A DNA stretch of 29,401 nt. Origin: a virus. The notes under the pieces were generated by a model. The model saw only the letters and a list, made by a program, of their open reading frames with translations, did no database searches and was not told where the DNA came from. Below are positions 2,495-27,736 of this stretch, piece after piece. Position numbers and translations under genes: made by a program. Numbering within the stretch: the first letter of the stretch is position 1; every line of letters begins with the position of its first letter. The stretch covers positions 1 to 29,401 of IMG/VR virus record IMGVR_UViG_3300034198_001978. One strand, given 5' to 3'.

Positions 2495-4143
2495 TGAAGA
2501 CGCCGATTCTTGGGTCGTCATATGTGGCCCGCAGTGTCAATGCGGCCGACAGCCGCATGGTCAATCTGTTTCCCGAGGCCATACCCGAAGGCGGCAAAGA
2601 ACCGGGCTTTTTGAACCGCGCTCCCGGACTGCAATTGCTTGCCAACATGGGCGATGGCCCTATTCGTGGCCTGTGGCAATTTGGCGGCTACGGCTACGCC
2701 GTGTCGGGCGAAATGCTGTACAAGATCGACAGCCTGTTCAACACTACCGAAATTGGCACAGTGGCTGGATCGTCCGGGCCTGTCAGCATGTCTGACAACG
2801 GCACGCAGTTGTTCATTGCTTGCAACGGCCCCAGCTTCATTTACAACAGCCTGACGCTTGAGTTCGCGCAAATTACCGACCCTGATTTTCCTGGTGCTGT
2901 CACCGTGGGCTATCTGGACGGCTACTTTGTGTTTAACGAACCCAATAGCCAGCGCCTGTGGATCACCAGCTTGCTGGACGGTACATCTATTGACCCGCTT
3001 GATTTTGCCAGCGCCGAAGGTTCTCCTGATGGTCTGGTGTCGGTTCTTGTGGACCACCGTGAAGCATGGTTGTTTGGCACCAATTCGGTTGAAGTTTGGT
3101 ACAACTCAGGCGCGCCCGATTTTCCTTTAAGCCCCGTTCAAGGTGCATTTAACGAGGTTGGCTGTATTGCAGCGTTCTCGGTGGCCAAGCTGGACAACGG
3201 CATTTTTTGGCTGGGCGCAGACGCCCGTGGCCGGGGTATCGTCTACCGCGCCAACGGGTACACTGCGGAGCGCGTATCAACCCACGCCGTTGAGTGGCAG
3301 ATTCAGCAATACGGCAATTTGTCGGATGCGATTGCCTACACGTACCAGCAAGACGGCCATGCGTTCTACGTGCTAATTTTTCCTTCGGCAAACACTACAT
3401 GGGTGTTTGACGTTGCCACTTCGTTGTGGCACGAACGGGCTGCGTTTATCAACGGGGCATTTACCCGCCATCGCTCAAACTGTCAGATGTCGTTCAACAA
3501 CGAAATTGTTGTAGGCGACCATGAACTTGGCAACATCTACGCATTCAGCCTAGACGTGTTTTCCGATGCTGGTCAGCCCCAGAAATGGCTACGGTCGTGG
3601 AGGGCGCTTCCTACGGGCACCAATGATTTAAAGCGAACAGCGCACCACTCATTACAGCTTGACGCCGAAACAGGCGCAATTGACAGCAGCGTCACAACAA
3701 CACCGGTTATCGTTGACGTTTCAAATCCCAACGATGATTTGCTTGCTGAAAACGGTGATTTTCTTGTTTGGGAATATGACACACTTAGCAGTTTGTTGAC
3801 TGAAAATGGCAATGTTATTGTTCAGGAAGACGGCAGCTTTATGTATATTGAAGGGCTTCCGTCAACTGTGGGTGGAAAAATATTGATTGAGCAAGGTCAG
3901 CTTACGGCAAACGCTATTGATCCACAGGTTATGTTGCGTTGGTCAGATGATGGCGGCCACACTTGGAGCAACAGTCACTGGCGCTCGATGGGCAAAACGG
4001 GCGCATATGGCACCCGTGTGCTGTGGCGTCGATTGGGCATGACGTTAAAGTTGCGGGACCGCGTTTACGAAGTGTCAGGCACTGACCCGGTCAAAATTGC
4101 CATCATGGGCGCTGAACTTATCGCAAGTCCGACAAATGGCTAA
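2494..4143 (+). CDS. P22 gp10-like packaged DNA stabilisation protein (tail hub)
   Basis: A 549-residue protein starting MKTPILGSSYVARSVNAADS. I use the ATG at 2494, one base inside the stop of the upstream gene, not the TTG one codon earlier. The N-terminus with RMVNLFPEAIPEGGK, then repeated WLFGTNSVEVWYN and FWLGADARGRGIVYR blade-like segments, fits the gp10 family of P22-type phages. That protein sits between the gp4 ring and the needle or fibres as part of the tail hub. The first 330 residues look like a beta-propeller; the C-terminal third (residues ~400-549), with GGHTWSNSHWRSMGKTG, is a family hallmark. It overlaps the next gene by 8 bases. Confidence 0.75.
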   Translation: MKTPILGSSYVARSVNAADSRMVNLFPEAIPEGGKEPGFLNRAPGLQLLANMGDGPIRGLWQFGGYGYAVSGEMLYKIDSLFNTTEIGTVAGSSGPVSMSDNGTQLFIACNGPSFIYNSLTLEFAQITDPDFPGAVTVGYLDGYFVFNEPNSQRLWITSLLDGTSIDPLDFASAEGSPDGLVSVLVDHREAWLFGTNSVEVWYNSGAPDFPLSPVQGAFNEVGCIAAFSVAKLDNGIFWLGADARGRGIVYRANGYTAERVSTHAVEWQIQQYGNLSDAIAYTYQQDGHAFYVLIFPSANTTWVFDVATSLWHERAAFINGAFTRHRSNCQMSFNNEIVVGDHELGNIYAFSLDVFSDAGQPQKWLRSWRALPTGTNDLKRTAHHSLQLDAETGAIDSSVTTTPVIVDVSNPNDDLLAENGDFLVWEYDTLSSLLTENGNVIVQEDGSFMYIEGLPSTVGGKILIEQGQLTANAIDPQVMLRWSDDGGHTWSNSHWRSMGKTGAYGTRVLWRRLGMTLKLRDRVYEVSGTDPVKIAIMGAELIASPTNG

Positions 4144-8141: not shown

Positions 8142-10313
8142 ATGGCAAATCTCGCCTCGATCCTTAACGACCCAAATTACGTCAACGCCAATGAGGCGAC
8201 AAAGAAGGCGATTTTTGACAAGTTTTCCGCACAGGACACAAACTTTACAAATGCGAACCCTGCAACACAAGACGCCATTCGTCAAAAGTTTGGTGTCCAG
8301 ACACCCGAGGGGCGAAATGTTGAAATAGATGTTCGGTTTCCAAGTTCAACGACACCTGAGTTGCCCGAATCGCTGCGCCCTCGTCCAGAAGCTGTAACGC
8401 CAGGCCCACGTCAAGAACTAAGCACTGGTCAAAAGGTTTACCAAGCCGCCCGTCCTTATGTTGCCCCGTTGTTGGAGGCTGGCGGCGCGATTGGCGGCGG
8501 TCTGCTGGGCACTCCGATGGGTCCAGCAGGCGTTGTAGGCGGCGCTGGCCTTGGCTACGGCATTGCCAAGGAAGGCTTGGAGATGGCCGATGTGGCGATG
8601 GGCATGAAAGCCCCTCGTCAAGGCGTCGCCCAAGTCGCTGAACCTGTGCGTAACGTACTTGAAGGCGCAACCTTTGAAGCGGGCGGTCGGGTTGCTGGTC
8701 CGTTGCTTGCTAAAGGTGTGGGCAAGCTGATGGACTTGCGCCAGATTCCGCAAAACAAAGCCACCAAGATCGTGAAAGACGCTCTTGGTCCAGACTTACC
8801 CGAAGTGCTCAATGCGCTCAAGGCAGGGCAGGGCAAGGGCATGAGTGCTGCACAAGCCACAGCCGACATCAACAGCCCCACGTTCCAAGCCTTGATTGAC
8901 CGAGCCACGGCCCGCGATCCACGGTTCTTGCAGGCGCTGGAGAAGTCCCAAGGCGAGGCGTCGCTGAACGCGTTGTCCAAACTGGCCGGGGGCGCTACAG
9001 CCGCTGATGTGCGGGCTACCACAGAAAACGCAAAGAAAGCTGTCAGTTCAATTACCAGCCCCATGCGTGAGACAGCCCTTAACCGCGCCAACTTAGGCAA
9101 AGAAGTGGCCCGCTTGGAAAACATGGCTGATGATCTTGGTGAGCAAGCGGCTGGCAAAGTGCAAGAAGTGCGCCGCCTGATGGAGTTAGGTGACATTGCA
9201 ACCGCCAACGCGCGCTTGGGCCTGATCAAGCAAAACCTGCCCGTAGGTTTGGAAAAGTATACCTACTCAGGCGAGTTGGCCGAAAAGGCTTTTGGCGAGT
9301 GGTCTAACAAAGCCGCACAGGCATCTCTCGATCTGGGTCAAGGCGCCCGGTTTGCGGATGAAGCAGCCGGTGCTTTGCGTTCGGTGGGCATCAAACCGTT
9401 GGAAGGCGCGCCGTTGGTGCGTAGCCTAAAAGCCGTGGCAAACAACCCTGAGTTTGCAGGCAATGACGTGTTGACAGGCGCGCTCAAAAATGTGTCTGAC
9501 GACATTGCCAAGTGGACCAGCAGCGGCGGTGTCATCGACGCCCGCGCACTGGACGCCATCCGCAAGAACTCGGTCAACGCCGCCATCCAACAACTTCGCC
9601 CGGGCATGGACGCCACAAGCCAACGCAACCTTGCTGCTGGCGTATTGAGCCGTGTTAAACCCGTGCTGGACGACGCCGTTGAAGCTGCGGGCGGCACAGG
9701 CTACCGTGAGTATCTAAAACAGCACGCCCAAATGTCTCAAAAGGTTGCTGAAAAGCAATTGACTGGCGAAGCGCTGCGTTTGTTTAAGACCGACAAAAAC
9801 GCATTTGTGCGACTGGTGCAAAACGAGTCGCCCGAAGCCGTCGAGAAAATTCTTGGCCCCGGCAAGTACAACATCGCCGTTGAGTTGGCCGAAAACACTT
9901 TGGCACCGTTGGAGGCCGAAGCCGCTAAGGTCATCCGCAACGCCAACATTCAATCTCAAGTTGAAGGCGGTCAGACAGCGCTCAAAGAATTGCTGTTGCA
10001 AAACATGAGCAAATTGCGTTTGCCGTCATACCTGAGCGCCGTGGCCGCGACAACAAACAAGGCGTTGAACATCTTGGAAAACAAGATTGGCGCTAAGACT
10101 ATGTCAACCTTGACCGAAGCGCTGAAGACACCCGAAGGCGCTGCTCAGTTGTTGGAATCACTGCCTGCTGCCGAACGCAATCGCGTGTTGCAAATCATGG
10201 CCGATCCGTCAAAATGGGCCGCGCCAACCCGCGCTGCTGTGACCGGAACCACTACAATGGGCGTCAACATGCTGGCACCTAACCGTAATGTTGAAAACGC
10301 TTTTGTGAGGTAA
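8142..10313 (+). CDS. Large ejection / internal virion protein with glycine-rich membrane segments
   Basis: A 723-residue protein with ribosome site AAGGATAGAAC before the ATG. Residues ~1-50 contain a helical repeat (ILNDPNYVNANEATKKAIFD, then a second NANPATQDAIRQKFG). Residues ~105-145 are a Gly/Ala-rich hydrophobic stretch (GGAIGGGLLGTPMGPAGVVG) able to enter membranes. The rest is helical and charged (residues ~195-680). It is the third and longest gene of the ejection group. In P22-type phages such proteins leave the head before the DNA and build a path through the cell envelope. No peptidoglycan-cutting motif is visible. It is immediately followed by the lysis cassette. Confidence 0.6.
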   Translation: MANLASILNDPNYVNANEATKKAIFDKFSAQDTNFTNANPATQDAIRQKFGVQTPEGRNVEIDVRFPSSTTPELPESLRPRPEAVTPGPRQELSTGQKVYQAARPYVAPLLEAGGAIGGGLLGTPMGPAGVVGGAGLGYGIAKEGLEMADVAMGMKAPRQGVAQVAEPVRNVLEGATFEAGGRVAGPLLAKGVGKLMDLRQIPQNKATKIVKDALGPDLPEVLNALKAGQGKGMSAAQATADINSPTFQALIDRATARDPRFLQALEKSQGEASLNALSKLAGGATAADVRATTENAKKAVSSITSPMRETALNRANLGKEVARLENMADDLGEQAAGKVQEVRRLMELGDIATANARLGLIKQNLPVGLEKYTYSGELAEKAFGEWSNKAAQASLDLGQGARFADEAAGALRSVGIKPLEGAPLVRSLKAVANNPEFAGNDVLTGALKNVSDDIAKWTSSGGVIDARALDAIRKNSVNAAIQQLRPGMDATSQRNLAAGVLSRVKPVLDDAVEAAGGTGYREYLKQHAQMSQKVAEKQLTGEALRLFKTDKNAFVRLVQNESPEAVEKILGPGKYNIAVELAENTLAPLEAEAAKVIRNANIQSQVEGGQTALKELLLQNMSKLRLPSYLSAVAATTNKALNILENKIGAKTMSTLTEALKTPEGAAQLLESLPAAERNRVLQIMADPSKWAAPTRAAVTGTTTMGVNMLAPNRNVENAFVR

Positions 10314-10316
10314 GTG

Positions 10317-10550
10317 ATGAACATCCCCGAGATCGACCCAGTGAAGTACGGCGTGCTGTGGGAACGCGTACAAAACTACGAGCGCCGTTTTGACGACATG
10401 AGCGTCAAGATCGACAAGATGGAAGTGTCCATTGAAAAATTGGTGGCGATGGCCAATCAAGGCCGGGGCGGGTTTTGGGCAGGCATGGCGTTTGTGTCGT
10501 TCTTCTCCAGCGCAGTAGGGTTTTTACTTAGCTGGATAAAAGGGCACTGA
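10317..10550 (+). CDS. Holin-like protein: coiled coil plus C-terminal membrane helix
   Basis: A 77-residue protein. The ATG at 10317 is preferred over the adjacent GTG at 10314 because GAGG at 10306-10309 is then well spaced. Residues ~12-47 form a charged coiled coil (ERVQNYERRFDDMSVKIDKM), and residues ~52-74 one membrane helix (FWAGMAFVSFFSSAVGFLLS). This matches small class III-type holins or haemolysin XhlA-like proteins encoded next to endolysins. It overlaps the endopeptidase gene (TGATG). It most likely makes or regulates the inner-membrane lesion at lysis. An accessory holin role is also possible, because a second holin candidate lies two genes downstream. Confidence 0.65.
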   Translation: MNIPEIDPVKYGVLWERVQNYERRFDDMSVKIDKMEVSIEKLVAMANQGRGGFWAGMAFVSFFSSAVGFLLSWIKGH

Positions 10551-10930
10551 TGTTCTCACTTGGCCCACGTTCAATCGCGCGCCTAAAAGGCGTCCATCCT
10601 GACTTGGTAAAAGTTGTTGAACGCGCCATTGAGATCAGCACAATTGATTTCACAGTGCTTGAGGGCTTACGCAGCCCTGAGCGCCAAAGAGCGCTGGTTG
10701 ACACGGGCGCAAGCCAAACCCTTAACTCACGCCATATCACCGGCCACGCCGTAGATTTGGGCGCTTGGGTAGACGACCAGGTAGATTGGTCTTGGCCGCT
10801 GTACAACAAGATTGCAACGGCGATGAAAGAAGCCGCGAAACAACTTAACGTCAAAATCGTTTGGGGCGGCGATTGGAAAAGTTTTAAAGACGGGCCTCAT
10901 TTTGAACTTGACCGAAAGGCGTACCCATAA
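10550..10930 (+). CDS. Endolysin: M15-family zinc peptidase (L-Ala-D-Glu / D,D-type)
   Basis: A 126-residue protein of the VanY/Ply500-like M15 peptidase family, which cuts peptide stems of peptidoglycan. The zinc site is visible: SRHITGHAVD gives His62 and Asp69, and DGPHFEL gives His117. LRSPERQRALVDTGAS (residues 40-55) is the usual upstream motif. There is no signal peptide, so release to the periplasm should depend on a holin. It lies between two holin-like genes with 1-base overlaps (TGATG and TAATG). Confidence 0.9.
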   Translation: MFSLGPRSIARLKGVHPDLVKVVERAIEISTIDFTVLEGLRSPERQRALVDTGASQTLNSRHITGHAVDLGAWVDDQVDWSWPLYNKIATAMKEAAKQLNVKIVWGGDWKSFKDGPHFELDRKAYP

Positions 10931-19017: not shown

Positions 19018-20964
19018 ATGAAGACCAAATCGAAGCCCCCGCCTTTTATGCTTTACCTTGATTTTGAAACCCGCAGCCATTGCGATCTGAAGGCCAAGGG
19101 TGTCTACAACTACGCGCAAGACGCCAGCACCGAAGTGTTGTGCATGTCTTACGCCTTCAACGACGATGAAGTGCAGACGTGGGTTCCCCCTCAGGAATTC
19201 CCAGCCGCTGTACGTAATCATACCGGCTTGATCTACGCGCACAACGCGGCGTTTGAGCGCTTAATTTTTTGGTATGTGTTGCAAATAAACTACAAGCTGG
19301 AGCAGTTCTATTGCACCGCTACCCAAGCCCGCGCCAACTGCGCGCCTGGCAGCCTTGAGGACGTGGGCCGCTTCAGCGGCGCAGCCATGAAGAAAGACCA
19401 TCGCGGCGCGCAACTGATCCGTCAGCTATGCGTGCCGCCGTTTAAAGACTCGCCCGAACTGATGGCCGAGTTGATCGCCTACTGCGAACAGGACGTGCGG
19501 GCCATGCGTGCCGTCAGCAAGGCTATGCGGCCGCTGTCTGCGGATGAATTGCTGGACTACCACGTCAACGAGCGCATCAATGATCGTGGCCTGCTGGTGG
19601 ACGTGCCGCTGTGCCGCGCCGCCGTTAAATACGCAGGCGACGAAGGTGCAGAAATACAACAGATTGTCACCGAGGTGACTGAAGGCCAAGTCACCAGCGT
19701 CCGCAGTCCCAAGATGCGCGAGTGGGTGCTGGAGCGCGTCGGGCCAGAGGCCAAAAAACTGATGTGGACGGGCGAGAAGTATTCGATCGACAAGTCAGTG
19801 CGGGCAAACCTGCTGGCGATGGACAACCCTGACGAAGTCGCCCCCGATGTGGCCGAAGTCATCCAATGCGCTGACGACCTTTGGGCGTCGTCGGTTGCAA
19901 AGTTCAACCGCCTTGCGTCGCTGGCCGATGACGAAGACCACCGGGTGCGGGGCGCGCTTGTCTTTGCTGGCGGCAGCGCTACCGGCCGCGCGTCGTCCTA
20001 CGGGGCGCAAATCCATAACTTTCCCCGCAAGAGCGCCAAAGACCCCGACGCGGTTCGCACGGCGATGGTGCGGGGGCATGAGATCGTGCCCAAGTACGGC
20101 AAGCGCATCACGAACGTATTGAAAGAAATGTTGCGCCCGTCCATTGTGGCAGCGCCTGGCAACGTCCTGATCGCCTACGATTGGTCGGCCATTGAGGGCC
20201 GTGTGCATCCTTGGCTGTCCAACTGCCCAGCAGGCGAGGCCAAACTGGACGTGTTCCGGTCGGGCCTTGACCCGTACAAAGTCAACGCTTGCGCGACCTT
20301 TCGCGTGGCTTACGATGACGTGACCAGTGACCAGCGTCAGGTGGGCAAGGTGCAAGAGTTGGCTTTGGGGTTTCTAGGTGGCGCAGGCGCGTTTGAAGTG
20401 TTCGGCCGCGCCTACGGTATCCATTTGTCTGTTGGCGAGGTTCAGCGGGCCGTGGACGGCTGGCGCAGGGCCAACCCTTGGGCGCAGCAGCATGGCCAGC
20501 AATTAGAAGGCGCATACCTGCGGGCGATGAGAAACAAAGGTCATGAATTTAAGGCTGGCCGGATTGTGTACCTTTTCGACGGCCAGACGCTCTGGTATGC
20601 TTTGCCCTCCGGCCGGGTGCTGTGCTACCCCAACGCCAAGTTTGACGAAGAAGGCAACGTGACGTACACCAAAGCAGCTTGGAAGCCAGCAGCCGACGCC
20701 AAAGAATGGCCCCGCGCCCGTTTGTGGCGGGGTCTGGCTTGTGAAAATGTCGTGCAAGCCACGGCCAACGACATCCTTCGCCATTCCCTGCGCCAGCTTG
20801 ATGGCGTAGTGGCGCACGTACACGACGAAATTGTCGTCGAGTGCCCCGCCGATCAGGCAGACTATGTGTCCAAAATGATGTTTGACGTCATGTGCACACC
20901 GCCCGCATGGGCGACGGGCTTGCCGTTGAACGCTGAGGGTGCGACGACCACCCGCTATTCGTAA
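19018..20964 (+). CDS. Family A DNA polymerase with 3'-5' exonuclease
   Basis: A 648-residue phage replicative polymerase. Exonuclease motifs: LDFET (Asp15, Glu17), HNAAFE (75-80) and YCEQD (155-159). Polymerase motifs: A, YDWSAIEGR (Asp388 and Glu393); B, RQVGKVQELALGF (440-452, Lys444); C, VHDE (His602-Asp603-Glu604). There is no 5'-3' exonuclease domain. SSYGAQIHNFPR is the usual motif before motif A. The start at 19018 has no ribosome site; a downstream alternative ATG at 19048 (MLYLDFET) lacks one too. Translation may depend on the structured leader or on coupling. Confidence 0.92.
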   Translation: MKTKSKPPPFMLYLDFETRSHCDLKAKGVYNYAQDASTEVLCMSYAFNDDEVQTWVPPQEFPAAVRNHTGLIYAHNAAFERLIFWYVLQINYKLEQFYCTATQARANCAPGSLEDVGRFSGAAMKKDHRGAQLIRQLCVPPFKDSPELMAELIAYCEQDVRAMRAVSKAMRPLSADELLDYHVNERINDRGLLVDVPLCRAAVKYAGDEGAEIQQIVTEVTEGQVTSVRSPKMREWVLERVGPEAKKLMWTGEKYSIDKSVRANLLAMDNPDEVAPDVAEVIQCADDLWASSVAKFNRLASLADDEDHRVRGALVFAGGSATGRASSYGAQIHNFPRKSAKDPDAVRTAMVRGHEIVPKYGKRITNVLKEMLRPSIVAAPGNVLIAYDWSAIEGRVHPWLSNCPAGEAKLDVFRSGLDPYKVNACATFRVAYDDVTSDQRQVGKVQELALGFLGGAGAFEVFGRAYGIHLSVGEVQRAVDGWRRANPWAQQHGQQLEGAYLRAMRNKGHEFKAGRIVYLFDGQTLWYALPSGRVLCYPNAKFDEEGNVTYTKAAWKPAADAKEWPRARLWRGLACENVVQATANDILRHSLRQLDGVVAHVHDEIVVECPADQADYVSKMMFDVMCTPPAWATGLPLNAEGATTTRYS

Positions 20965-21018: not shown

Positions 21019-23313
21019 ATGCGCGATTTTATAGAGTTTTTGACAGCTTTGGCACCCGACGGCGAAACTTTTTTGGTGGTGCGTCAAAAACCGCAGTTAA
21101 AAGACGGCCAGTATCAATACCACGCCGACGGCGCAGTCAAGGCCACTTGGCCTGCCATGCTGCCTACGGCCAAAGTCAAGCCCGATTGGGCCATTTACGG
21201 CAACACCGCTTCGTTCATTGTTGACCGTTTCAAAGACGGCCACGTCAGCGCCAGCGCCGCCAACTGCGAGTATGTGCTGGTCATGGTGCTGGACGATGTT
21301 GGCACAAAAGCCAACATTCCACCGCTTGAGCCGACTTGGAAGATGGAGACGTCGGCCGGGTCGTTTCAGTGGGGCTATGTGTTCAGCGAACAGCCCACCA
21401 AAGCCGAGTACACCGCAGCCATTAAGGCGATTGCCGATGCGGGCTACACCGACCCCGGGGCGATCAACGCGGTGCGTAATTTTCGCCTGCCTGGCAGCGT
21501 GAACCTGAAACCCGGCCGCGATAACTTTGCGTCGACGCTAGTGGAATTTCACCCCGAACGCGATTTCACATTGTTGCAAATATGCAACGCTTTGGAAGTG
21601 ACGCCCGGCGATGCGTCTGCCGTACACCGCCCGATTCGTATTTCTGACGATGGCACAGACGACGTGATGGTCTGGCTGTCCGAGCAAGGGATGCTGCTGT
21701 CGCGCCCTAATCAAGAGGGCTGGGCTGGCGTGATCTGCCCCAACAGTGCCGAGCATAGCGACGGCAACCCCGAGGGCCGCTACCTGCCCGCCAATCGTGC
21801 CTACTGCTGCCTGCACTCGCATTGCCTTGACTTTGATTCGTCTGTGTTTTTGAAGTGGGTCGCCGACAACGGTGGCCCCAAGCACACGCCGGGCCTGCGC
21901 GAAGAATTGCTGGTCACTGTGATGGAAGGCGCTTTGGCCAAGTTGGCCCCGACGCCTGACTTCCCCGATGCGGCCGCTGCGGTGGTCGCCGAAGTCGAGC
22001 GCAAAGAGTTGGGCCGCGTTGAAAAAGACGGCTGGTATACGCGGTTTGCGTACCTTCAAGACGACGATTCTTATTTTGATTTAAGTGAGCGGCATGAGGT
22101 GTCGCGTCAATCGTTCAACGCCATTTTTCGGCACTTGGAGTGCCGTAGCATCCACGGGGCCAAAAAATCCAAAATTGAAGCCTCAACGTCATTTGACGAA
22201 AACCGCCAAGCCAAAGGCGCGCGCGTTTTGAAGGGTGTCACCTACGCTGCGGGCGAGTCTATTCTGTGCGCGCGCGATGGCCTGGTCTACGGCAACCGCT
22301 GGCGCAATGCCCGCCCTGTCGCTGTTCCTGGCAATATCCAGCCTTGGATTAAGCACTTAGAGCACATGATCCCCGACCAGCGCGAGCGTGAGCACGTTTT
22401 GAACGTGATGGCGTTCAAAATCCAACATCCTGACCGCAAGATTAACCACGCCGTGCTGCATGGCGGTAACCCTGGCAGCGGTAAAGATACCCTATGGGCG
22501 CCGTTCTTTTGGGCCATCGGTGGCGATTCTTTGAAAAACGTCTCTCTGGTCCGCAATGAGGAAATCACCAGCCAGTGGGGCTATGCCCTAGAAACTGAAG
22601 TTTTGGTGGTCAACGAATTGCGCCAGTCTGAGGCCAAGGATCGACGGGCCTTGGAAAATACTTTAAAACCCCTGATCGCGGCGCCGCCTGAATTTTTGTC
22701 GGTGCAGCGAAAAGGATTGGCGCCCTATGACCTGGTTAACCGTTTGCTGGTCGTGTCATTCTCAAATGAGCGCGTCGCGATTAACCTGCCCTCCGACGAT
22801 CGTCGCTGGTTTGTAATTTGGTCCGACGCGGCGCGCATGACCGACGAAGACGGCGCGGTCATGTGGGCATGGCTGGAGGCCGGGGGCAAGTCAGCGGTGG
22901 CGGCTTGGTTGCACCAGCGTGACGTGTCCGCATTTAACCCTGGCGCCACGCCCATGATGACCGAGGCAAAGGCAATCATGGTCGAGGCGGGCATGAGCGG
23001 CGCAGAGTCGTTTCTTGTTGACCTAATGCGAAACCGTATCGGAGAATTTTCTAAAGGCGTCGTGGGCGCGCCCTGGCATGCCCTTTGTGACCGTTTGCAG
23101 GGGTCAGTGCAGGGTAACGTGAAAATCGTACAGCCTGCCCTGCTGCATGCCCTTAAAGAGGCGGGGTGGATTGACATGGGCCGGTTAAAGTCCCGACGCC
23201 ATGACAATAAAAAACACATTTTTTGCGCGCCTAATATGTTGGACATGAGCCGGTCCGACATGCGCGACATGGTAGAAGAACCGCCCGCGTCGATATTGCA
23301 GCGCGTCAAATAA
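21019..23313 (+). CDS. Primase-helicase: RepB-like primase domain plus DUF5906-type ATPase
   Basis: A 764-residue protein with ribosome site AGGAG before the ATG. The N-terminal region (residues ~1-195) looks like a RepB-like/archaeo-eukaryotic primase domain, with acidic VMVLDDVG and RNFRLPGSVNLKPGRD. Residues ~230-275 hold clustered Cys and His (CPNSAEH, YCCLHSHCLDF), a possible zinc motif. The C-terminal helicase has Walker A GNPGSGKDT at 483-491 and Walker B-like VVNEL (Asn532-Glu533; the usual Asp is Asn). SDDRRWFVIWSD is the typical later motif. It probably unwinds and primes the phage origin. It ends the operon, its stop codon overlapping a terminator stem. Confidence 0.85.
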   Translation: MRDFIEFLTALAPDGETFLVVRQKPQLKDGQYQYHADGAVKATWPAMLPTAKVKPDWAIYGNTASFIVDRFKDGHVSASAANCEYVLVMVLDDVGTKANIPPLEPTWKMETSAGSFQWGYVFSEQPTKAEYTAAIKAIADAGYTDPGAINAVRNFRLPGSVNLKPGRDNFASTLVEFHPERDFTLLQICNALEVTPGDASAVHRPIRISDDGTDDVMVWLSEQGMLLSRPNQEGWAGVICPNSAEHSDGNPEGRYLPANRAYCCLHSHCLDFDSSVFLKWVADNGGPKHTPGLREELLVTVMEGALAKLAPTPDFPDAAAAVVAEVERKELGRVEKDGWYTRFAYLQDDDSYFDLSERHEVSRQSFNAIFRHLECRSIHGAKKSKIEASTSFDENRQAKGARVLKGVTYAAGESILCARDGLVYGNRWRNARPVAVPGNIQPWIKHLEHMIPDQREREHVLNVMAFKIQHPDRKINHAVLHGGNPGSGKDTLWAPFFWAIGGDSLKNVSLVRNEEITSQWGYALETEVLVVNELRQSEAKDRRALENTLKPLIAAPPEFLSVQRKGLAPYDLVNRLLVVSFSNERVAINLPSDDRRWFVIWSDAARMTDEDGAVMWAWLEAGGKSAVAAWLHQRDVSAFNPGATPMMTEAKAIMVEAGMSGAESFLVDLMRNRIGEFSKGVVGAPWHALCDRLQGSVQGNVKIVQPALLHALKEAGWIDMGRLKSRRHDNKKHIFCAPNMLDMSRSDMRDMVEEPPASILQRVK

Positions 23314-23338
23314 AAACGGCCCTTACGGGCCGTTTTTT
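23312..23338. terminator. Bidirectional intrinsic terminator
   Basis: AAAAACGGCCC-TTAC-GGGCCGTTTTT has an 11-bp stem with A-tract and T-tract on opposite sides, so it ends both the rightward replication operon and the leftward accessory operon. Confidence 0.9.
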
Positions 23339-23393
23339 ATAGGTTTAACAGTATCGCAAGTATCGCGGCAATTATTGCCGCAAGCGCAATCAT
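23337..23393 (-). CDS. Tiny hydrophobic peptide, 18 residues
   Basis: MIALAAIIAAILAILLNL. It starts at an ATGA overlap with the preceding gene, has GGGG eight bases before the ATG, and ends at the terminator. All residues except Asn17 are non-polar, enough for one membrane helix. It could be a membrane-active or regulatory peptide; equally, it may be a non-functional short frame. Confidence 0.35.
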   Translation of the reverse strand: MIALAAIIAAILAILLNL

Positions 23394-23593
23394 TCGTCGG
23401 CCCCTATATATGCCCGTTCATGTTGCAATATGGTCAAGTCTTGCCGTAACCCTTCAATTTCCGCCGTGGCCACGCCTAGCGCATGTTGCAGCGCTTCAAT
23501 GCGGGCAAATAGCTTGGCCGCGTTTTCGAATCCTTCGGCATAACACAACCGCTCCGCATCGGCCGCCGGTAGTCTCATAAAATCAAAGTCCAT
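23390..23593 (-). CDS. Small coiled-coil hypothetical protein
   Basis: A 67-residue protein with ribosome site AGGGGAAAAAA before the ATG. Residues ~25-60 (RIEALQHALGVATAEIEGLR) form a coiled coil. It overlaps the preceding gene by 11 bases. Function unknown. Confidence 0.6.
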   Translation of the reverse strand: MDFDFMRLPAADAERLCYAEGFENAAKLFARIEALQHALGVATAEIEGLRQDLTILQHERAYIGADE

Positions 23594-23726
23594 TTTTTTC
23601 CCCTAAGTATTCGGCCACGGTCCGGCCGGTTAAAAAAGCATGCTCCGCACTTGGCATGTCAATTGGCGCGTCGTCGATAGCGTCGGCCAATTCAATCAGC
23701 CACTGCCAAAATTCTTTTACTTTCAT
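23583..23726 (-). CDS. Small hypothetical protein
   Basis: A 47-residue protein. The start at 23726 (MKVKEFWQWLIELADAIDDA) is set by an ATGA overlap and a GGAG eight bases upstream, in preference to a longer frame from 23771. Helical with an acidic patch. Function unknown. Confidence 0.5.
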   Translation of the reverse strand: MKVKEFWQWLIELADAIDDAPIDMPSAEHAFLTGRTVAEYLGEKNGL

Positions 23727-23989
23727 AGCGGCGACTCCGGCATACTGGCGCGGGTTTCCGCTGGTGTCCAAGGGACCGGCTCATTTTGAAATGGCCACAC
23801 GACGAAGTCTTGAAGGTTTGCGTTCATTGTGGAATATGGCCCGGTTTGAAATAGCGCGCGGTATTGGTGCCACACGGTCATAAGAATGACCGGCCGCCCT
23901 TTGTGGTGCCCTTTAACGCCTGCGCGCGGCCATGTGTCGCGCGTCGGGTACCGGTCCGGCGCCGGATTATGCTTATAGCCGGGTATCAT
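23723..23989 (-). CDS. Hypothetical protein
   Basis: An 88-residue protein joined by ATGA overlaps to both neighbours. Rich in Pro, Trp and His (GYKHNPAPDRYPTRDTWPRA, VVWPFQNEPVPWTPAETRA). No membrane segment and no family recognised. No CTG codon occurs in it, as in the two genes before it. Confidence 0.55.
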   Translation of the reverse strand: MIPGYKHNPAPDRYPTRDTWPRAGVKGHHKGRPVILMTVWHQYRALFQTGPYSTMNANLQDFVVWPFQNEPVPWTPAETRASMPESPL

Positions 23990-24741
23990 GCTTGGACCCC
24001 TAACATAATCACGCGGCGCTTATGGCCGACGGCGTGGTCCGCGATGACGACGTCGCGGGCGGATTTTGAAGTTCCGCCGCATAGCATGCATGTGTCGCAT
24101 GTGGCTTTACGGCCACCTTCGGCCGACGCAGGGCATGTGACTTCGCCCGCGTGTTTTTCCACGCCTACGGACACGCGGAAAACGCGCATACCGTACAAAT
24201 TAGCCTGCGCGGCTTCGTCGATTGTGTCGGCCGACGCCATAACCAACGGCGCCCATGCAGCATGATCAAAATTGACGCTTTGCCATTGGTGACTGTATCC
24301 GACGATACCGGCCGCGTCGGCCGTGATAGTTTGCCACATGCGGACCGGCGCGGCCGCGGGGTCCCCATAAGTGCCAAGCCGGACTTTGCGGCCGGACAAT
24401 ATGGCGCGGAGTTGGTCCGGCGTGGCTTTTTGGTACCGGCCGCGGCGGTATGCTTCGTAAACCGAACGGACCGAACGGCCGACGTTTACATAACATGGGG
24501 CTTGGCCATTGTCGCGGGCCAAAATCGGCCGGTGGACACATTGGCCGCAAATTGACACGTCGGCGCCGGTTTTGAGCGCGTCGGTTGGCGTCACGTCGGA
24601 CCGGATAATGAAAGTCTGTACAAGGTCCGCGCCGGTTTTGGCATTGGCCGAACCGGACAATTTATTGACGATGACGACAATCGGGCGGCCGTCGATTTCC
24701 GACGGGCCTTCGAATGCAATGTAACCAAGGGGCTTTTTCAT
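23986..24741 (-). CDS. Cysteine-cluster phage protein (gp88-like family)
   Basis: A 251-residue protein. The start at 24741 (MKKPLGYIAFEGPSE) is set by an ATGA overlap and preferred over a longer frame from 24921 that would cover the upstream gene. Seven cysteines fall in two clusters: CGQC...C at residues 65, 68 and 83, and CPASAEGGRKATCDTCMLC at 203, 215, 218 and 221. Between them are RLGTYGDPAAAPV and GYSHQW. I recall this arrangement from a widespread phage family labelled gene product 88 or hypothetical. A metal or Fe-S site is plausible; function is unknown. Confidence 0.6.
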   Translation of the reverse strand: MKKPLGYIAFEGPSEIDGRPIVVIVNKLSGSANAKTGADLVQTFIIRSDVTPTDALKTGADVSICGQCVHRPILARDNGQAPCYVNVGRSVRSVYEAYRRGRYQKATPDQLRAILSGRKVRLGTYGDPAAAPVRMWQTITADAAGIVGYSHQWQSVNFDHAAWAPLVMASADTIDEAAQANLYGMRVFRVSVGVEKHAGEVTCPASAEGGRKATCDTCMLCGGTSKSARDVVIADHAVGHKRRVIMLGVQA

Positions 24742-25013
24742 TTTGACACCTTTAAAAGTGAATTGATACCGGCGACAAGGGAGTCCAAGTCGCGCGCATA
24801 ACGATTGACGCCGCCCGTGTAATCTTTCATGTGCGCGGCCGTACGGTACAAATACCCGCCGCCCAAAACTTCGGTATTGACGTACACGATAGCGTCGCCG
24901 CGCGCGATAAAGCCGGAACATCCGCGCTTGTCGTCGTTCACGCGGATATTTTTAAGCGCCACATTGTGGGCGGGCGAAAAACGGTTTTTAAGTTTAGTTG
25001 CGAGAATTAACAT
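24738..25013 (-). CDS. Hypothetical protein of accessory operon
   Basis: A 91-residue protein. The start at 25013 (MLILATKLKNRFSPAHNVAL) has GGAG five bases upstream and is preferred over a longer frame from 25079 that would cross the preceding gene. Basic N-terminus, glycine-rich middle (VNTEVLGGGYLYRTAAHMKD). No family recognised. Ends in ATGA overlap with the cysteine-cluster gene, so the two are probably made together. Confidence 0.55.
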   Translation of the reverse strand: MLILATKLKNRFSPAHNVALKNIRVNDDKRGCSGFIARGDAIVYVNTEVLGGGYLYRTAAHMKDYTGGVNRYARDLDSLVAGINSLLKVSK

Positions 25014-25023
25014 GTGGACTCCC

Positions 25024-25146
25024 TTATTTTGTGAGCACGTCGAAGTAAGCCAAAGCGCCGACCAGCAGCGCGGCGGCAATCGTGAGCGCGGCGACCACGT
25101 CGCGCCAGTCGGTTTTGTTTGCGTCGGTAAAAATGTTGCGGTTCAT
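25024..25146 (-). CDS. Small single-pass membrane protein
   Basis: A 40-residue protein with ribosome site GGAGAG seven bases before the ATG. Residues 1-17 (MNRNIFTDANKTDWRDV) are polar, residues 18-36 (VAALTIAAALLVGALAYFD) a membrane helix. It is the first gene behind the strong leftward promoter, so it should be among the most strongly made early products. Function unknown; membrane-acting early proteins in phages include superinfection exclusion and host-inhibition peptides. Confidence 0.6.
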   Translation of the reverse strand: MNRNIFTDANKTDWRDVVAALTIAAALLVGALAYFDVLTK

Positions 25147-25179
25147 ACAGTACTCTCCAGGTTGGTTAATGACGTGTCC

Positions 25180-25207
25180 ATTGTACGTGATTTCTTTACA
25201 CTGTCAA
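25180..25207 (-). promoter_or_regulatory. Strong leftward sigma70-type promoter
   Basis: On the minus strand: -35 TTGACA (25202-25207, perfect), 16-base spacer, -10 TACAAT (25180-25185). It starts the accessory operon 34 bases before the first ATG. A TGTCCA motif (25175-25180) overlaps the -10 and the likely start of transcription, a possible operator position. Confidence 0.75.
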
Positions 25208-25225
25208 TGACCACACGCAAGAAAA

Positions 25226-25245
25226 TTTGTAACAGTTTGTAACAG
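25226..25245. repeat. Tandem 10-bp repeat TTTGTAACAG x2
   Basis: Two perfect adjacent copies lying 19-38 bases upstream of the leftward -35 box. The 10-bp period would put a bound protein on one face of the helix; a likely activator or repressor site. Confidence 0.7.
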
Positions 25246-25380
25246 TGGACATTGTGGGCGAAGTGTGGGCAGCGTTTTTCGGTATGCATGACCCACATGC
25301 GCGGCCATACAGAATGCGGGTTTTGAGGCTTTGTGGATATTGTGGACAGTCTATTTATCTTATATCAGAAAGAATAAATA

Positions 25381-25400
25381 TACTGTATAGATATACAGTA
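25381..25400. promoter_or_regulatory. LexA (SOS) operator, near-perfect
   Basis: TACTGTATAGATATACAGTA matches 19 of 20 bases of the E. coli LexA consensus and has the CTGT-N8-ACAG core also used in beta-proteobacteria. The palindrome extends one base further on each side. It lies inside the iteron cluster, in AT-rich DNA. Confidence 0.75.
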
Positions 25401-25488
25401 TAGTAAAAGGGGGTAAGCGACTGAAATTTCATTGTCCACATGTCCACACTGTCCACACTTTGCACCGGCGCAGTTTGCCCACGCAAAC

Positions 25489-25536
25489 TGTGGACATTGT
25501 GGACAGTCTGTTAACGCATTGTCCACATTGTCCACA
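25489..25536. repeat. Inverted repeat built of paired iterons
   Basis: A 17-base arm (25489-25505) of two TGTGGACA units faces a 17-base arm (25520-25536) of two TGTCCACA units, one mismatch, with 14 bases between. It can form a hairpin or a symmetric protein-binding dyad; GTTAAC lies in the spacer. Confidence 0.7.
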
Positions 25537-25553
25537 AACTACAGTTTATACAG

Positions 25554-25573
25554 TGCTGTATTTGCATACAGTG
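25554..25573. promoter_or_regulatory. Second, weaker LexA-type site
   Basis: TGCTGTATTTGCATACAGTG keeps the CTGT-N8-ACAG core and matches 15 of 20 consensus bases. Extra TACAG half-sites lie immediately to its left (25541-25553). It is about 170 bases before the terminase start. Confidence 0.45.
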
Positions 25574-25745
25574 TTAGACTTGCGGGGGTTAGCTGGTTGC
25601 TGTGGACTGTCCGCAGTGTCCACAAAGTTTCGAGGGGGAGGGGGTAGGGCCGACCGACAGGGCCAGCTAAAAACGTAGCGTTCACGAACAATTTTTTTAT
25701 TTTTTAATATATGATGACAACACGCATCTTTGCGGCCATACAACT

Positions 25746-26204
25746 ATGAGTTTTCATTCACTGCCCCTTGTCCTTAATGAAGTCCGCGCCACAGAGGCGG
25801 TGCTTAACCGCATTTACGATGCGGCCAAACTTGGACTGAAGGGTGACAACCTGGCACTTGCAGCGGGCATGATCCCGCAGGCTTATCGGCAGTTGTGCGA
25901 GTTAGACCCACTGGCGCAACTGGCCGAACAAAAAGGCCGCGCAGAAGGCGAGAAGCTGGCGTCTACGCAACTGCACAAAGCGGCTGAGCAAGGCGACGCT
26001 AAGGCAGCGCTGGCAATCTTGCAAAATGTCCACGGTTGGGTAGCCAAGCAGTCCATCACGGTAGACGTAGACCAGCGCATCTCCATCATCGGGGCGCTGG
26101 CTGAAGCCGAGCGACGCGCGGCCGACGTGATTGACGTGGTAGCGCACGAACCAAGCCCAACACTTAAAGCCAGGCTTGCACCCGCCAAACAGGTACAAAC
26201 ATAA
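25746..26204 (+). CDS. terS: Terminase small subunit (probable)
   Basis: A 152-residue protein directly before, and overlapping by one base (TAATG), the large terminase gene. Residues ~15-65 (ATEAVLNRIYDAAKLGLKGD, then LALAAGMIPQAYRQLCELDP) form an N-terminal helix-turn-helix-like domain suited to recognising the packaging site. A central helical oligomerisation region follows, with a Pro-rich tail. No Shine-Dalgarno sequence is visible before the ATG. The identity is mostly positional, since small terminases diverge quickly. The iteron-rich region upstream may contain its binding site. Confidence 0.7.
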   Translation: MSFHSLPLVLNEVRATEAVLNRIYDAAKLGLKGDNLALAAGMIPQAYRQLCELDPLAQLAEQKGRAEGEKLASTQLHKAAEQGDAKAALAILQNVHGWVAKQSITVDVDQRISIIGALAEAERRAADVIDVVAHEPSPTLKARLAPAKQVQT

Positions 26205-27736
26205 TGCAGTCAACCATCTATTCGGCCGAAGACGAACAGGAACTCATGGCGCGGCTATGGGCGCCGCAGTACAAAGACAACCCGCTGGCGTTCGTTAAGT
26301 TTGTGTTCCCGTGGGCTGTTAAAGGCACGCCGCTGGAAAACTTTGACGGGCCGCGCAAATGGCAGCGCGAGGTGCTGCAACGCATCGCCGACCACATCCG
26401 GGACAACAAGGGTCAGATAGACTTTGACACGCTGCGCCACGCCGTCTCATCCGGCCGGGGTATCGGCAAGTCGGCGTTGGTGTCATGGATCGTGATCTGG
26501 ATGCTGACCACACGCATCGGCTCGACCACCATCGTGTCGGCTAACTCGGAAAGCCAGCTTCGGTCTATCACATGGGCCGAAATCACCAAGTGGCTGGCCA
26601 TGTCGCTTAACAGCCATTGGTTTGAAGTCAGCGCAACTCGGCTGATGCCCGCCAAATGGTTGACGGAATTGGTCGAGCGCGACCTGAAAAAAGGCACCCG
26701 GTATTGGGGCGTAGAGGGCAGGCTCTGGTCGGCTGAGAACCCCGACGCGTACGCTGGCGTGCACAACTTTGACGGTGTGCTGGTAATCTTTGACGAAGCG
26801 TCGGGTATCGACGACTCGATCTGGGCGGTGACGGCGGGTTTCTTTACCGAGAACACGCCCAATCGTTTTTGGCTGGCGTTTAGCAACCCGCGACGCAACA
26901 CCGGGTATTTCTACGAAACCTTCCACAGCAAACGCGAGTTCTGGGTAACCAAGGTGGTGGACGCCCGTACAGTCGAGGGCACGGACAAGCAGGTCTATCA
27001 GCAGATCATCGACGAATATGGGCCGGACTCCGCGCAGGCGCACGTCGAGGTGTACGGTGAGTTTCCTAACGCAAGCGACGACCAGTTCATCTCCAGCATG
27101 GTCGTGGACGACGCCATGAAGCGAGAGAAGTACAAAGACCCGACAGCGCCCATCGTAATCGGGGTAGACCCGGCGCGGTTCGGTGCTGACGCAACCGTGC
27201 TGGCCGTGCGGCAGGGGCGAGACATCGTTAAGATCATCCGGCACCGGGGCGACGACACCATGACGGTGGTCGGGCATGTGATCGAGGCCATCGAGGAATA
27301 CAAACCGGCGATGGTGTTTATCGACGAAGGCGGGCTGGGCGCAGGCATCGTGGACCGGCTCAAAGAGCAGCGGTATAAAATCAAGGGTGTCAACTTCGGC
27401 TGGAAGTCGCGCAACCCGTCAATGTACGGCAATATGCGGGCGCAAATCTGGGGCGACATGCGTGAGTGGCTGAAGTCGGCCAGCATCCCAAATGATCGGT
27501 TCTTGAAAACCGATCTGATTTCGCCTATGATGAAGCCGGATTCTAAAGGGTCGATATTTTTAGAATCGAAAAAAGACATGAAAGCGCGTGGGTTAGCGTC
27601 CCCGGATGCTGCGGACGCTATTGCGCTAACCTTTTCGTACCCCGTGGCTAACCGTGGGGATTACAATTCGCGCACCGTAACGCGCGTAAGTTCCGCAGGC
27701 CAAAGCGCGGTATCAACTGGATGGATGGGGTCTTGA
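26204..27736 (+). CDS. terL: Terminase large subunit (packaging ATPase and nuclease)
   Basis: A 510-residue DNA packaging motor. ATPase: Walker A SGRGIGKSAL (Lys89, Ser90) and Walker B VLVIFDEAS (Asp197, Glu198). RNase H-like nuclease: IGVDPARFGAD (Asp322), VFIDEGG (Asp374) and SPDAADAIALTF (466-477). It docks on the portal, pumps DNA and cuts the concatemer. The start shares a base with the stop of the small subunit gene. Confidence 0.93.
   Translation: MQSTIYSAEDEQELMARLWAPQYKDNPLAFVKFVFPWAVKGTPLENFDGPRKWQREVLQRIADHIRDNKGQIDFDTLRHAVSSGRGIGKSALVSWIVIWMLTTRIGSTTIVSANSESQLRSITWAEITKWLAMSLNSHWFEVSATRLMPAKWLTELVERDLKKGTRYWGVEGRLWSAENPDAYAGVHNFDGVLVIFDEASGIDDSIWAVTAGFFTENTPNRFWLAFSNPRRNTGYFYETFHSKREFWVTKVVDARTVEGTDKQVYQQIIDEYGPDSAQAHVEVYGEFPNASDDQFISSMVVDDAMKREKYKDPTAPIVIGVDPARFGADATVLAVRQGRDIVKIIRHRGDDTMTVVGHVIEAIEEYKPAMVFIDEGGLGAGIVDRLKEQRYKIKGVNFGWKSRNPSMYGNMRAQIWGDMREWLKSASIPNDRFLKTDLISPMMKPDSKGSIFLESKKDMKARGLASPDAADAIALTFSYPVANRGDYNSRTVTRVSSAGQSAVSTGWMGS

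Follow-up and report, generated by a model that had tools for sequence, protein, structure and literature searches.

The 29,401-base virus record analysed here (the window) is an incomplete contig that encodes a P22-like portal, a family-A DNA polymerase and a DUF5906 primase-helicase. Its relatives are podophages with a P22-like portal, and their likely hosts are Betaproteobacteria. Between a minus-strand operon that ends leftwards from position 25146 and the small terminase gene (TerS, from 25746), a non-coding region (25147-25745) holds a dense array of short repeats. No credible gene was found within this region, and an Rfam search of 23300-26300 gave no match.

The repeat array and its surroundings

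The 8-mer TGTCCACA occurs ten times on both strands of the whole record, and nine of the ten copies fall inside 25341-25624. Dinucleotide shuffles of the record gave a mean of 0.96 copies and at most 4. A sequence-only reading had described nine non-coding copies in both orientations, many in pairs or a triple with 8-9 bp steps, and the spacing and strands are as it claimed (Table 1). Near-copies (TGTGGATA, AGTCCACA and TGTCCGCA) lie beside the exact sites, and when one mismatch is allowed, 16 sites in both orientations are found in the 800 bp before TerS. The 9-bp unit of the window is TTGTCCACA, with TGTCCACA as its core.

The AT-rich sequence that the same reading placed beside the repeats includes the most AT-rich 50-bp stretch of the record (82% AT). 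It is flanked by inverted iterons, with the left inverted pair on one side and the rightward triple on the other. The same anatomy is seen in relatives: around the AT maximum of 126 related regions, the nearest site to the left is on the minus strand and the nearest to the right on the plus strand in 89. The tract also contains a LexA-box-like palindrome, whose pattern CTGTN8ACAG is present in 24 of the 126 regions against 1.3 expected, and which may link the origin, or its operons, with the host SOS response or with a phage repressor. Cumulative GC skew, which the sequence-only reading suggested as a check, does not turn at the array. The replication genes are closer than that reading implied: the primase-helicase gene ends 2.0 kb to the left of the array.

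Table 1. Positions in the window of the array, the tract beside it and the genes considered as its readers
Feature	Position	Strand	Basis or remark
Family-A DNA polymerase (PolA)	19018-20964		
Primase / SF3 (D5-type, DUF5906) helicase, 764 aa, proposed initiator	21019-23313	+	Pfam and profile match
C-terminal winged-helix domain (residues ~660-755), predicted	22996-23283	+	AlphaFold and weak structural matches
Wing segment GRLKSRRHDNKKH (residues 721-733), putative specificity residues K724, R726, D729	23179-23217	+	Co-variation
Left iteron pair: TGTGGATA (25332-25339, degenerate) and TGTGGACA (25341-25348)	25332-25348	-	
AT-rich tract, proposed DNA-unwinding element	25353-25402		Most AT-rich 50-bp window
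LexA-box-like palindrome TACTGTATAGATATACAGTA within the AT-rich tract	25381-25400		Matches CTGTN8ACAG
Iteron triple (25433, 25441, 25450)	25433-25457	+	
Iteron pair (25489, 25498)	25489-25505	-	
Iteron pair (25520, 25529), in the opposite orientation to the pair before it	25520-25536	+	
Right-end group: AGTCCACA (-) 25601-25608, TGTCCGCA 25608-25615, TGTCCACA 25617-25624	25601-25624	+	
TerS	25746-26204	+	Assigned from position, without family match; array not tracked
TerL	26204-27736	+	Array not tracked

Relatives were collected as 80 viral contigs via the large terminase (TerL) and as more than 120 stretches with two adjacent units via a pattern. Their arrays precede TerL by about 0.6-1.1 kb. 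Among the contigs of the TerL set whose upstream sequence is long enough, about half carry TGTCCACA, and most of the remainder have a different 9-bp unit at the same place. Loss of the array from relatives that keep the genes, which had been named as evidence against the repeats being an origin, is thus not what most relatives show; the array is present and its unit is often different. The units include TTGTCCACA, TAGCCAACA, TGACCCAAA, TGACYCACA, TTGCCTACA and TAGCCGACA among others, and further TGACTCACA/TGACCCACA, TAGCCCACA, TGACTTACA and TTGTCCATA; the pattern T-n-n-Y-Y-n-A-n-A is common to all listed 9-bp units.

The variety of units bears on the proposal that the repeats are host DnaA boxes and that the host initiator opens the origin. 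As previously noticed, some copies approach a DnaA box: three of the nine TGTCCACA sites have the form TTGTCCACA, one base away from TTATCCACA. DnaA-box units are not conserved, however, and at the same place relatives carry units such as TGACCCAAA, TAGCCAACA and TGACTTACA, so the initiator is not DnaA. The unit moreover changes on the same branches as the wing of a phage protein (see below). Host DnaA was rejected as initiator, and we regard its chances as close to negligible.

In L053, L065, L079 and others, another palindrome (CTAACTTAG / CACTAACTTAGTTAGTG) is repeated in 4-7 copies upstream of TerS and occupies the place of the CTGTATA palindrome of other relatives. Phage DSL-LC05 (L199), related through its TerL, carries an array at 3606-4000 with units of the TGACCCACTGGG type; tblastn did not detect a homologue of the window primase-helicase in the fetched part, and this phage possibly pairs another initiator with a similar origin.

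The protein that follows the unit

Natural swaps of the unit separate the candidate readers. Loci L011 (unit TAGCCAACA) and L014 (unit TTGTCCACA) have wholly different arrays; their TerL proteins are identical over 508 aligned residues, their TerS proteins differ only in the C-terminal tail, and 12 of the 21 positions that differ between their primase-helicases fall in residues 719-760, clustered at the wing of a predicted winged helix. The pair L018/L197 repeats this pattern. When primase-helicase C-termini are aligned and sorted by unit, one segment, GRLxSxxxxxKKH, proves specific to each unit class across clades. Over 54 common loci, association with the unit class reaches 0.85 at primase-helicase residue 729 and 0.66 at residue 724, the highest values among all variable columns of that protein, against best-column values of 0.35 for TerS and 0.33 for TerL. 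In the 26 loci that also hold PolA, the association is 0.84 for the primase-helicase and 0.49 for PolA. Where primase-helicases are 97-100% identical outside the C-terminus, pairs with the same unit differ in the wing by an average of 0.0 residues and pairs with different units by 3.8. Judged by co-variation, the primase-helicase is the protein that tracks the array, and TerS, TerL and the DNA polymerase do not.

The array lies just upstream of TerS and TerL, a position in favour of a pac or cos region bound by TerS. The swap pairs speak against this: in L011 and L014, arrays without resemblance go with a shared TerL and with TerS proteins that vary in the tail only. TerS is not the initiator, as neither terminase subunit changes along with the repeats; a TerS-bound pac site was rejected, and we consider a packaging role for the iterons highly improbable. 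The combined origin and packaging role suggested by the sequence-only reading likewise gains nothing from the 9-mers. A separate G-rich element lies nearer to TerS, between it and the array (25632-25706): GAGGGGGAGGGGGTAGGGCCGA...AGGGCC...GAACAATTTTTTTATTTTTT, found in 66 of 126 related regions with any iteron class and in none after shuffling. This conserved element is a candidate packaging site, promoter or terminator.

The primase-helicase matches Pfam DUF5906 (E 2.8e-10) and, by profile, the NrS-1 helicase (6k9e, E 6e-11); a weak, sub-threshold match to RepB_primase (0.008) is the sole sign of a primase-polymerase domain. An AlphaFold model of residues 640-764, built on 42 close sequences, has a pLDDT of 81 with a core above 90 and predicts a winged helix in the order helix, strand, two helices, strand, wing, strand, helix. 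The wing loop corresponds to residues 724-731, and the presumed recognition helix (705-714) is nearly invariant. The best structural matches of this domain are winged helices, including the C-terminal region of NrS-1, and all are weak; Foldseek returned no significant match for it, the P4 domain structure was absent among the matches listed, and no sequence homology of the domain to P4 alpha or PDB chains was found. The full-length model was too poor to rely on (pLDDT 68, pTM 0.38).

Wing residues and unit bases

The co-variation suggests that the wing contacts bases. On a tree of 162 proteins (322 branches) from which the C-terminal domain was left out, the eight changes of residue 726 and the eight of unit base 8 fall on the same branches, and residue 729 and base 4 have 12 of 16 changes in common. 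Unit classes in the first set were in part assigned by hand. A rule predicting the unit from residues 724, 726 and 729 was fixed before three further scans fetched the test regions. A clear array was called in 102 of 124 held-out regions and no clear call was made in 22, although the cut-offs for "clear" and the status of three calls as uninformative were decided once the list had been seen, which is a weakness, and five held-out wings were read by eye. In the 102 regions, base 8 is always C where residue 726 is arginine (79/79) and always A where it is glycine or serine (23/23). Lysine at 724 goes with C at base 6 (42/42), and serine, new at this position in the held-out set, with G in five of five cases and in two different unit backgrounds; with alanine, base 6 is A, C or T, never G. 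The full unit was predicted correctly in 80 of 91 cases, against 19.8 by permutation. Contigs of metagenome-assembled genomes fit this picture: one from a Rhodoferax MAG in a third collection combines the K/R/D wing with nine copies of TGTCCACA.

Most of the wrong predictions come from one subclade with the wing ASREYQ. Its members (L222, L225, L228, L232) carry GCCTACA-TGACCCACA dyads and not the predicted TAGCCAACA, and this exception implies that residues 724, 726 and 729 are not the whole code. In another relative, L198 (MW202483), whose primase-helicase is 51% identical to that of the window, the wing is MCFAPELSTKRH and the array at 10317-10580 consists of TGTTTACA units, of which many form TGTTTACATAAACA palindromes.

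Conservation is poor between wing and array in the swap pairs, and swaps may travel as one recombined block of wing, accessory operon and array. A small repressor from the operon could then bind the array and the co-variation of the wing would be hitch-hiking. Such a block would not yield the same residue-to-base match repeatedly across backgrounds, as seen for residue 726 and base 8 on eight of eight branches and for the pairing of S724 with G in two different units, and none of the five accessory genes searched across loci was found in more than 40 of them. We consider this explanation very unlikely.

Reading of the unit would fall mainly to the wing of the primase-helicase, with residue 726 specifying base 8, residue 724 base 6 and residue 729 bases 3-4. 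More tentatively, the initiator might read its origin by the wing rather than by the recognition helix, in a code of nearly one residue to one base (726/base 8, 724/base 6, 729/base 4), which the phages would switch repeatedly, probably to evade exploitation of the origin by satellites, rival phages or defences; we rate this idea as a possibility somewhat short of even chances.

A proposed origin and the systems it resembles

We conclude that the array (25332-25624) is very probably a replication origin whose iterons are bound by the C-terminal winged helix of the primase/SF3 helicase. The earlier interpretation as a replication origin or initiator-binding region thus survives, with a unit that follows the wing of the primase-helicase and neither terminase subunit. 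In the proposed mechanism, the winged-helix domain would bind the 9-bp units, and side-by-side and inverted bound copies would load two or more helicase rings flanking the AT-rich tract. The tract would melt, and the primase part would then prime synthesis by the phage family-A DNA polymerase. What the analysis establishes is the array, the place and anatomy that it keeps in relatives, and the specific co-variation of its unit with the wing; physical binding, melting, ring loading and the start of replication at the array are all inferred.

The same protein could bind the array mainly for transcription control of the divergent operons or for limiting copy number. The array does lie between divergent operons, and both a strong sigma-70-like promoter match for the minus-strand operon (11/12, 25207-25180) and the LexA-like palindrome adjoin it. 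An arrangement of up to 16 sites in two orientations around the most AT-rich tract is, however, what origins typically show, and the protein found to follow the array is a helicase-primase. A mainly regulatory role seems unlikely to us, and the origin remains the preferred reading.

Iteron origins with C-terminal winged-helix initiators are already known. According to PMC4234260 (citing Yeo 2002), P4 alpha is a primase-helicase whose C-terminal winged helix binds short repeats. In the P4 record, the 8-bp type 1 repeats TGTTCACC occur in both orientations with 9-11 bp steps, and they are only two bases away from TGTCCACA. The short repeats in tandem and inverted groups of a P4 alpha-type origin are found in the window array, and the window protein is likewise a primase-SF3 helicase with a predicted winged helix at its C-terminus. 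An hhalign comparison of the C-terminal domain of the window protein with P4 alpha gave a probability of 0.14, with no detectable sequence relation, and because no homology of the DNA-binding domains was detected, the window system is not classed as a member. The P4 primase is of the TOPRIM type by the literature. P4 also carries its repeats at another cis site, crr; no second cluster was seen in the window, which is an incomplete record.

SaPI Rep and SCCmec Cch2 are self-loading helicases whose C-terminal domain binds iterons (PMC7581432). In these systems, compared here by description, the origin lies directly downstream of the gene, whereas the window array is 2.0 kb away (23313 vs 25332), past the accessory operon. 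By analogy, we think it probable that the window origin works like the P4 alpha and SaPI Rep origins.

The NrS-1 primase-polymerase, to whose helicase part that of the window is homologous, recognises short template motifs such as TTTGGTTA (PMC8718748), and this motif prompted testing of the primase. Motif reading in NrS-1 is assigned to the helix-bundle domain on single strands, whereas the determinant in the window is the C-terminal winged helix. The template motif was dropped as the source of the unit, as the residues that co-vary with the unit belong to the C-terminal wing and not to the primase part. pRN1 ORF904 unites an AEP primase, an SF3 helicase and a C-terminal winged helix in a single protein (PMC4234260), but its origin is a stem-loop without iterons, unlike the window array. 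In the PLE satellites of Vibrio cholerae, the DNA-binding domain of RepA co-varies with iterons and replicons are swapped (PMC8263062); this initiator belongs to another family (RepA_N), and its iterons are semi-palindromic and about 30 bp long.

A search of the available literature collection for the origin of this phage group found no paper. The number of natural switches and the residue-to-base grain seem to be new. A common freshwater phage group supplies many naturally switched initiator-origin pairs with single residues matched to single bases, which makes origin specificity, incompatibility and the driving pressure directly testable, and the initiator class of a phage becomes predictable from its origin, and vice versa. 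One relative (L213) has eight consecutive iterons at exact 9-bp steps (8308-8379), which suggests a recent tandem amplification of the unit.
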